Source of the DNA: Pelagibacteraceae bacterium | GTDB taxonomy: Bacteria; Pseudomonadota; Alphaproteobacteria; HIMB59 | NCBI GenBank assembly: GCA_002705265.1 | Contig: PAHR01000033.1 | Coordinates: 1 to 39,558 of the forward strand | Length of the DNA stretch: 39,558 nt | Reading direction: 5' to 3' | Program-made: the position numbers and the translations under genes | The notes under the pieces: generated by a model | What the model saw: the letters and a program-made list of their open reading frames with translations, nothing else | What the model was told of the DNA's origin: nothing | Databases searched by the model: none | Shown here: positions 6,489 through 8,299 of the stretch, piece after piece | Layout of the letters: each line of letters begins with the position of its first letter | Position numbering within the stretch: the stretch's first letter is position 1

Positions 6489-6968
6489 ATGTCTTGGGAT
6501 ACACAAAAAATCGAAAACTTGAGGAAACTTTGGGATGATGGTGTTGCTACAAGCCAAATTGGCCTACAGCTTGGATTTACAAAAAATGCGGTAATTGGCA
6601 AGGCTTTTAGACTAGGATTAGAAAGAAGACAAAACTCTAGAAAAAAATCGGCCTCAAATAGCCTTTCTTCTACTATATATAGGGATACAAAGCCAGGCGC
6701 ATCAATGACAACGAATAATGTCTCAAAACAATCAACAACTAAAAAAAGAGAAAAATTTACATTAAAGAAGAGCATTGTTGGCTCAGGCAATTTTAATAAA
6801 TGCCAATGGCCAATTGGAGATCCTTTGAAAAGTGGTTTTCATTTTTGTGAAGCAAGAAATATACCAACGAAACCTTATTGCATTGAGCATTATAAAGAAG
6901 CTTATAATGTTGATGAAAAATATCTTGATAAACTTTTAGATTTTCTAGGTGACAAATCTAAAAATTAA
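6489..6968 (+). CDS. gcrA: GcrA-family cell-cycle transcription regulator
   Basis: Alphaproteobacterial regulator that binds sigma-70 RNA polymerase and, in Caulobacter, activates promoters carrying methylated GANTC. Residues 2-45 form the conserved HTH (MSWDTQKIENLRKLW... then FTKNAVIGKAFRLGL). The C-terminal third has the Cys/His segment CQWPIGDP ... FHFCEARNIPTKPYCIEHY shared by the family. Length of 159 residues is normal. The ATG at 6489 gives the exact family start. It stands alone, divergent from pgk, with the duplicated tRNA fragment 43 bp after its stop. A CcrM-type methylase was not seen in this window. Confidence 0.95.
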   Translation: MSWDTQKIENLRKLWDDGVATSQIGLQLGFTKNAVIGKAFRLGLERRQNSRKKSASNSLSSTIYRDTKPGASMTTNNVSKQSTTKKREKFTLKKSIVGSGNFNKCQWPIGDPLKSGFHFCEARNIPTKPYCIEHYKEAYNVDEKYLDKLLDFLGDKSKN

Positions 6969-7011: not shown

Positions 7012-7059
7012 TTGGCGCACTCGACAGGAATCGAACCTGTGACCCCCAGATTAGGAATC
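7012..7059 (-). repeat. 48-bp duplicate of tRNA-Arg 3' end (att-like site, distal copy)
   Basis: Bases 7012-7059 are identical to 7686-7733, which cover the intact tRNA-Arg from the end of the 5' anticodon-stem strand through the T arm, acceptor strand and coded CCA, plus one base. Identity stops at 7060. The copy has no 5' half, so it cannot fold as a complete tRNA. A displaced tRNA 3' fragment at the far side of an insert is the usual trace left when a tyrosine recombinase integrates into a tRNA gene. Confidence 0.85.
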
Positions 7060-7193
7060 CGTGTCCCGTGGCTAGATTGAAGCACATATACGGAATTACG
7101 AAAAAAATCATTCATTAAGTAGAAAAAATAAGACTCTTAAGTAATAAATAAGTTTTTATTGTATAAAGGCTTTTTTTCTCTAATGTTCTTAAA

Positions 7194-7595
7194 ATGAGAA
7201 TATTTCATAGCTCAAGAGCAGTATTAGCATTAAACGGTATTATAATGATTATAATAGGCTTAACTTTTTTTATTTTTCCTGAAAAAATTACAATCATTAT
7301 GTTTCCTAAAATAATTTCAAATCCAGAAGCGATAAAGACTGGAGTTGTATTGAGGTATTTAATGGGAGCAGGCCAATTGTGTATTGGAATAATTTTATAT
7401 TTAGCTCGAATATCTATTAAATCGGGAGCTCAAAGACTTTTACTGGGATCAGGAATAGGATTTATGATAATATTTGCAACAGCAATACTCATAATCATTA
7501 AATATGATGCGGATATTCCTATAATAGCTTTATCTATTTATCCATTATTAGCTATCTTATCTTTATATGTTTCAACTAGAAAATATCAAGAATAA
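7194..7595 (+). CDS. Unknown four-helix membrane protein inside the tRNA-Arg repeat pair
   Basis: I do not recognise a family. The 133-residue product is mostly hydrophobic, with four predicted membrane segments at roughly 8-28, 51-71, 82-102 and 108-127. A short basic N-terminus (MRIFHSSR) and basic loop near residues 73-80 suggest both ends face the cytoplasm. There are no enzymatic motifs or conserved Cys/His pairs. It is the only gene between the two tRNA-Arg repeats, so it is a candidate cargo gene. The ATG at 7194 lacks a clear Shine-Dalgarno sequence. Composition is like its neighbours, so recent transfer cannot be argued from base use. Confidence 0.65.
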   Translation: MRIFHSSRAVLALNGIIMIIIGLTFFIFPEKITIIMFPKIISNPEAIKTGVVLRYLMGAGQLCIGIILYLARISIKSGAQRLLLGSGIGFMIIFATAILIIIKYDADIPIIALSIYPLLAILSLYVSTRKYQE

Positions 7596-7598
7596 TTA

Positions 7599-7665
7599 AT
7601 CACTCACTTTCTGCAAGTGTAGTGATCCGTAAGTGATACAAACCGAAATTTTTTTTTGTATCACT
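7599..7665. repeat. Cluster of AGTGAT/ATCACT motifs with an 11-bp inverted repeat
   Basis: ATCACT at 7599 and 7660 and AGTGAT at 7621 and 7632 form a cluster just outside the tRNA-Arg 3' end. Bases 7632-7642 and 7655-7665 are perfect 11-bp inverted repeats separated by 12 bp. The T-run lies in the loop rather than after the stem, so this is not a classic terminator. It may be a protein binding array such as recombinase arm sites (speculative). Confidence 0.45.
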
Positions 7666-7686
7666 CGAAAAAAGCCAGGGTTTAAT

Positions 7687-7763
7687 TGGCGCACTCGACA
7701 GGAATCGAACCTGTGACCCCCAGATTAGGAATCTGGTGCTCTATCCTACTGAGCTACGAGTGC
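7687..7763 (-). tRNA. tRNA-Arg (anticodon CCT), CCA encoded
   Basis: The minus strand folds into a full cloverleaf of 77 nt: acceptor GCACTCG/CGAGTGC, D arm GCTC/GAGC, anticodon stem CCAGA/TCTGG around the loop TTCCTAA, T stem ACAGG/CCTGT with loop TTCGATT, discriminator G and a coded CCA. The anticodon CCT reads AGG arginine codons. Its 3' 47 bases plus one flanking base are duplicated at 7012-7059. It lies between the small membrane-protein ORF and recX. Confidence 0.97.
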
Positions 7764-7810: not shown

Positions 7811-8299
7811 ATGGACACTAACCTAAATGATTTTTTATTTAACCAAGCTGTAAGCTATTTGGGTCGCTATCCTTCAACAAAAAGAAAATTAAAAATTCAT
7901 TTAAAAAAAAGAATGAAAAGTAAGAGATATATTTCTAAACTTAAAATAGATAAAAATTTAAATTTAGAAGAACTGCTCGATACAATTATAGAAAAACTAG
8001 TTGAACTAAAAATTCTTAATGAATTAAATTATATGGAATCTCTTTTTAATCATTTTACTAGATCGTTGTTTCCATTAAAAAAAATGAATCAAAAATTTTA
8101 TGCTCAAGGATTTGAGATTAAAGATATAGAAAATTTTTTAGATAAAAAAGTTATTGAAGAACCCGAATTAGAATTAAGAATCTTAGAAAATTATGTTAAG
8201 AAAAAAAAACTAAAAACTTCTGACCTATTAATTTTTAAAAAGAAAGTTTATTCTCAAGGATTTAAAGACGATACAATTAATAATTACTTGAAAGACTGA
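7811..8299 (+). CDS. recX: RecX-family regulatory protein
   Basis: RecX proteins bind RecA filaments and limit recombinase activity. The 162-residue product is basic and helical, with the opening A-x-x-YLGRYPSTKRKLKIHLKKR pattern, the mid-protein LVELKILNELNYMESLFNHF segment (equivalent to the L..glldD..fa motif) and two later QGF repeats (FYAQGFEIKDIENFL, VYSQGFKDDTINNYL), matching the three-repeat RecX layout. No recA gene is adjacent. It is very rich in lysine, in line with the AT-rich genome. It is convergent with rpmF, ending on the base before the rpmF stop. Confidence 0.8.
   Translation: MDTNLNDFLFNQAVSYLGRYPSTKRKLKIHLKKRMKSKRYISKLKIDKNLNLEELLDTIIEKLVELKILNELNYMESLFNHFTRSLFPLKKMNQKFYAQGFEIKDIENFLDKKVIEEPELELRILENYVKKKKLKTSDLLIFKKKVYSQGFKDDTINNYLKD

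Follow-up and report, generated by a model that had tools for sequence, protein, structure and literature searches.

The stretch of DNA analysed here (the window, 39.6 kb) comes from a 1.34-Mb draft genome, 87.7% complete, of the HIMB59 order, which comprises two families (PMC10734472). ARAGORN found a single tRNA in the window, a tRNA-Arg(CCT) gene that lies between gcrA and a recX-like gene (Table 1), the latter not being recognised in a Pfam search. The final 47 nt of this tRNA, which run from its anticodon stem to CCA, occur twice, together with the next base, as a 48-bp exact direct repeat at 7012-7059 and 7686-7733, with a start-to-start spacing of 674. This is the longest exact direct repeat of the window; in ten order-1 Markov sequences of the same composition the longest such repeat was 16-18 bp. 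The insert at 7012-7733 thus has the intact tRNA at one end and, at the opposite end, a displaced piece of that tRNA's 3' part, as Islander-type islands do, and the two copies of the tRNA 3' half are still identical. Besides the tRNA itself, Rfam matches were sub-threshold overlaps.

The original prediction, made from the window's letters, had proposed this repeat, its coverage of tRNA-Arg(CCT) from anticodon stem to CCA, the intact gene and displaced fragment at opposite ends, and an interval holding one gene and no integrase. Each of these points agrees with the repeat coordinates, the ARAGORN position of the tRNA and the reading frames of the interval, where the only plausible gene between the repeat copies encodes 133 aa. 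Islander-type islands also have an integrase gene inside, and none lies within the 7012-7733 interval.

Table 1. Features of the tRNA-Arg(CCT) locus, in window coordinates.
Feature	Position	Strand	Remarks
gcrA	6489..6968	+	Flanking core gene; Pfam PF07750, 1e-29
Displaced tRNA-Arg(CCT) 3' half	7012..7059	-	48 bp identical to 7686-7733; attR-type core, distal end, adjoins gcrA
P region	7060..7134	-	~75-bp non-coding stretch, adjoins core
Distal (P) arm, expected position	7136..7164	-	Putative; degenerate AT-rich trace only
Cargo gene	7194..7595	+	133-aa helical protein, probably membrane-bound; patchy in the order
Proximal (P') arm	7620..7666	-	Two direct sites (GTATCACTTAC GGATCACT, tRNA sense) and one inverted copy (AGTGATAC)
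Intact tRNA-Arg(CCT)	7687..7763	-	tRNA-proximal end of insert, attL-type junction; ARAGORN; Rfam RF00005, 72 bits
recX-like gene	7811..8299	+	Flanking core gene; named by position and after the original prediction

The cargo protein is predicted to be all-helical with a mean pLDDT of 86, consistent with a membrane protein. Searches of Pfam, PHROGs and NCBIfam for its function returned nothing above cut-off, only a sub-threshold match to DUF4345, and comparison of the predicted fold with solved structures gave no match (best E 0.46). Neither the cargo gene nor the exact 46-bp core was found in viral contigs, and a phage origin was rejected for both.

Comparison of the insertion site across the genus showed that the order pgk-gcrA-tRNA(-recX) is kept in 40 relatives, and that in most of them 44-50 bp separate the recX-like gene from the 5' end of the tRNA. 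As expected for the target of an integrative element, the site between gcrA and the tRNA was empty in 24 of the 40, where the gcrA stop codon lies 14-30 bp from the tRNA 3' end, and the other 16 carried different cargo at the same spot. None of the 40 had the window's tRNA fragment or its cargo gene there, so the same fragment and gene are not a fixture of all relatives, and the idea that the repeat is a conserved non-mobile RNA was rejected, the fragment being missing from every relative that has the site. The integration into the tRNA by a tyrosine recombinase that had been proposed for this locus is supported by these empty and alternatively occupied sites, an integrase presumably having carried it out. 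The tRNA allele within the window repeat is shared with only two other genomes, G023 and G014, and the 3' halves of the remaining full-length copies of this tRNA each differ from it by at least three positions; the window integration therefore belongs to that subclade.

Alternative cargo between gcrA and the tRNA included a pectinacetylesterase (ten relatives), a YtoQ-like gene, small membrane proteins and a homocysteine methyltransferase look-alike, Pfam assignment having been made for part of these genes. The ten pectinacetylesterase inserts (PF03283, tested on the L072 copy; L072, L073, L078, L082-L084, L090, L091, L093 and L107) have no 3' tRNA fragment and could be an old fixed cassette or ancestral. 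Some relatives also have inserts on the recX side of the tRNA. One of these, in L071 (genome G014), is a 3.1-kb insert with what appear by eye to be zinc ABC-transporter genes and a zur-like regulator, indicating that the tRNA-Arg(CCT) site takes operon-sized inserts too.

Within the window's own genome, the tRNA regions searched held no other 3'-half duplication, leaving the window cassette as the sole case. Two other observations were made near its tRNAs. A 97% copy of nt 6-34 of a tRNA-Thr(GGT) lies ~370 bp upstream of that gene on contig C37 (L256, 602-1077) and is a possible 5'-side remnant. A tRNA-Ser(GGA) gene lies at the end of L164 on C45 and a different copy at the start of L165 on C13, both being contig ends, as if a repeat-bounded insert had broken the assembly.

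The nearest homologues of the cargo gene are in two single-cell genomes, AG-319-D07 and AG-319-E03, of the same order as the window genome. Placement of these genomes in another order was considered and dropped (161 versus 162 genomes; G245 and G025 are the same genome). Judged by Pgk, which is 40% identical to the window genome's, they appear to belong to the order's other family; Pgk of the window genome is 61-63% identical to that of near genus members and 42% to that of a known member of the other family. The cargo protein is 77 and 79% identical across the same divide, which lends support, though not proof, to transfer of the cassette between families, rates differing between genes. A more distant homologue (56% identical) lies beside tRNA-Arg(TCG) in genome G018 (L009, 1498-2092), and no tRNA fragment was found there.

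In both single-cell genomes the cargo gene adjoins a tRNA-Arg(ACG) 3' half and a non-coding stretch, in the arrangement seen in the window. In AG-319-E03, single genes lie between five tRNA-Arg(ACG) 3' halves in a row that reaches the end of the contig, making at least four cassettes; their cargo comprises the 133-aa gene, a sulfotransferase and two genes whose leaders resemble those of type IV pilins. Several accessory genes in L156 (4368-6550) and L158 (1605-5184) likewise begin with a near-identical type IV pilin-like leader (MKKGFSLIELLVVVAIIGIL...), and pilin-like genes seem to be a favoured cargo.

A search of the two single-cell genomes with a tRNA model found tandem partial tRNAs behind tRNA-Ser(GGA), tRNA-Gln(TTG) and tRNA-Arg(ACG). 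With further genomes included, this gave a catalogue of 31 units at six kinds of tRNA, with a median length of 1.18 kb. Units were chosen for a bounding tRNA 3' half, so the sample is silent on how frequent such units are overall, and some may have been merged or split where boundaries are nested or lost. A single open reading frame of at least 60 aa was present in 19 of the 31 units, and 29 lacked an integrase. The two integrase-bearing units, L233 at tRNA-Arg(ACG) and L193 at tRNA-Thr, both match Pfam Phage_integrase, and in both the integrase adjoins the tRNA. In most duplications, irrespective of the tRNA concerned, the start lies within or close to the anticodon stem or loop.

Two further kinds of arrangement were noted during the search. 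L229 (4975-5185) contains a 162-bp unit without an open reading frame between two tRNA cores, which may be a cassette that is empty or has collapsed. In L166 (2002-6743), L168 (3256-10224), L156 (4028-6880), L089 (2028-3155) and L090 (8002-10673), the insert lies on the 5' side of a tRNA and duplicates the 5' half of that tRNA; these duplications span mostly nt 1-40/44 (nt 1-64 in L090), which in most cases corresponds to an anticodon-loop crossover of opposite, and unusual, polarity. The inserts in L166 and L168 carry an integrase, and the one in L090 has an apparent truncated integrase N-terminus with a weak match to PHROG integrases.

From their sequences, the catalogued units have an attP-like layout, in which a core is accompanied by arm repeats, those at one end of a cassette matching those at the other. 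Read in the sense of the tRNA, paired 10-11-bp direct repeats lie ~45 bp past the core and again ~80-105 bp ahead of the next core. For example, CGGCACACATACGGCACACTT is found at both ends of one tRNA-Ser cassette, and the tRNA-Thr element with an integrase has a pair of TGGGTACAC at either end. When cassette ends were compared, the mean score was 30.6 for the two ends of the same cassette versus 19.5 for ends of other cassettes (0 of 20,000 permutations), and the match to the own end held without one class of related ends (0 of 20,000 permutations); an inverted comparison of cassette ends, used as a control, gave 5%. The match is not found in every unit, the own partner ranking first in 10 of 30.

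The window cassette ranked 23 of 30 in this test. Its proximal arm occupies the place of the paired arm repeats in other cassettes, and perhaps the cassette is now stuck, having presumably lost its mobility when the other arm decayed. Its P region is 65-82% identical to those of 11 of 20 sister-family tRNA-Arg(ACG) units, 10 of which carry other genes, and the remaining 9 units (39-51%) serve as background. This retention among units with different genes indicates that the att module is conserved independently of the cargo.

A tyrosine recombinase was sought among the host's own genes. The window genome, within its 87.7% complete draft, has one match, a reading frame of 331 aa that resembles the Xer-sized frames seen throughout the genus. 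In several hosts no tyrosine recombinases other than Xer-like ones were found, which would fit a scheme in which the host Xer recombinase acts on these sites as it does in dif-based modules. The core, however, is half of a tRNA rather than a short dif-like site, and a layout with arm repeats paired on either side is that of arm-binding integrases, making action by Xer very improbable. A helper integrase for the window's arm class was found neither in its own genome nor in L233, the only integrase element found at the sister site, which has a different P-region class (42% to the window's). The L233 integrase is ~37% identical to integrases of temperate phages, and no close relative of it was present in the viral contigs scanned.

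What appears to be the strongest evidence that these cassettes move as units comes from one with an NmrA-like gene and no integrase. Over one core-to-core unit this cassette is 95.8-97.7% identical in three genomes, where it holds array positions 2, 1 and 1, and the downstream flanks are 77.5-80.3% identical. A unit so much more alike than its flanks indicates that integrase-less units do move. Such spread might also follow DNA uptake, with no integrase involved, if homologous recombination took place at the conserved flanks or between the tRNA halves of ~48 bp: each end has homology through its core, the host yielded no integrase, and the flanking genes are conserved across the genus. We think this improbable, since homologous recombination needs no arm repeats, yet the arms match within cassettes; the flanks of the transferred NmrA cassette have diverged outside the core; and duplications mostly start at the anticodon stem or loop in any tRNA, as for a fixed crossover region.

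The original prediction had left open whether the window insert is the residue of a larger island or a non-autonomous cassette, and it is the cassette that is favoured, because the same unit with its att region occurs in arrays of another family and because a comparable cassette, likewise without an integrase, has passed as a whole between genomes. A residue would be a CIME-like product of decay, in which internal deletion of a larger integrase-bearing island left one gene between the att sites. Such islands are usually explained as decaying to CIMEs (PMC5704250), elements with the same layout and an integrase do occur, and both the degenerate distal arm and a genome with no integrase other than an Xer-like one would be expected of it. 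Against this origin, the recurrence of the same ~0.7-kb unit, gene and att region together, in another family implies that the small form is old or was transferred as such; most catalogued units are compact one-gene cassettes, many with both arms, and the NmrA-like unit moved intact. Decay from a larger island, which may have happened once in an ancestor, is unlikely, if less so than homologous recombination or Xer.

The likely explanation for 7012-7733, in our view, is a non-autonomous cassette that a tyrosine integrase acting in trans has placed at tRNA-Arg(CCT). The arms, core and crossover region can be read in the DNA itself, and we infer a circle, an integrase acting in trans together with its identity, and a reaction of the following form. 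The free form would be a circle of ~674 bp with a single cargo gene and a 48-bp core made of the tRNA 3' half, which arm-binding repeats would flank on either side. Supplied in trans by another element, a tyrosine integrase would bind arms and core, and crossover in the anticodon stem or loop would bring the circle in 3' of the tRNA. The tRNA would be restored with the cassette's 3' half, and the host's own 3' half displaced beyond the cargo. If further circles entered the intact tRNA in turn, arrays would arise in which the newest cassette lies next to the tRNA.

Marine bacteria with ~1.3-Mb genomes have few plasmids, transposons and integrons, yet their gene content differs. A one-gene, integrase-free cassette with a defined att layout offers a concrete and testable route for this gene turnover, and such cassettes can be found from sequence alone by the tRNA 3' half and paired arm repeats. 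More broadly, we give an even chance to the proposal that the streamlined bacteria of the HIMB59 order share a tRNA-based, integron-like economy. Its units would be compact circles, mostly of one gene and without an integrase, each with a full attP made of a tRNA 3'-half core and arm repeats specific to the cassette. Different tyrosine integrases would capture these circles in trans, arrays of them would collect behind several tRNAs, and single genes could thereby travel from family to family on elements that have no phage, plasmid or conjugative genes. If so, near-minimal genomes could swap one gene at a time, much as integrons do, and the question becomes which integrases serve the cassettes and how a cassette meets a helper of the right arm specificity.

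Several known systems share parts of this format. The additive flexible genomic islands (fGIs) of Actinomarinales (PMC7771536) and fGI-2 of Methylophilaceae (PMC10872708) are, in the available parts of those papers, cassettes at tRNAs with partial tRNA repeats. The units described here resemble them as small tRNA-side cassettes with varied cargo at the same place in streamlined aquatic bacteria, and the window insert, with variable small cargo among relatives at its position and its tRNA-fragment repeats, would count as one. Single-gene units with their own attP-like arms, arm matching within a unit and core-to-core transfer of units set the present cassettes apart from additive fGIs as those parts describe them (PMC7771536, PMC10872708). 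Integrase-less att-flanked segments in tandem at the 3' end of a tRNA or ssrA gene are also known as CIMEs (PMC5704250) and as Dehalococcoides ssrA islands without an integration module (PMC3146451). The window insert is like a CIME in keeping both att ends, the distal arm degenerate, and in lacking integration and transfer genes, although no integrase-bearing element lies beside it in the window. CIMEs are described as decayed larger elements that are moved together with a neighbour, whereas the units here are mostly one gene, compact and recur with the same gene and att region across genomes. The text of the paper on HIMB59 islands (PMC10734472) mentions neither integrases nor direct repeats, and our search of open-licence literature, which is weak evidence of absence, found no description of the single-gene, own-attP, arm-matched format.

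Integron cassettes are similar in that they, too, form arrays of units that lack an integrase, mostly hold a single gene and have a recombination site each. Judged by repeat layout, the repeat here is a tRNA 3' half with arm repeats rather than attC; several different tRNA genes serve as anchors, and no IntI adjoins the array, the window genome having the Xer-like frame only and the integrases of the sister arrays (L233, L193) lying inside tRNA-targeted elements. Tycheposons, attributed to Hackl et al. in 2023, a work that PMC10872708 cites, are reportedly tRNA-anchored elements of 4-200 kb in streamlined marine bacteria that carry their own recombinase and are tied to tyrosine recombinases. 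The window insert shares their tRNA anchor and type of host, but at 0.67 kb (674 bp) it has neither a tyrosine recombinase of its own nor large cargo. The general kind of element, as additive islands and CIMEs, is already known, and it is the single-gene, own-attP, integron-like format that looks new.
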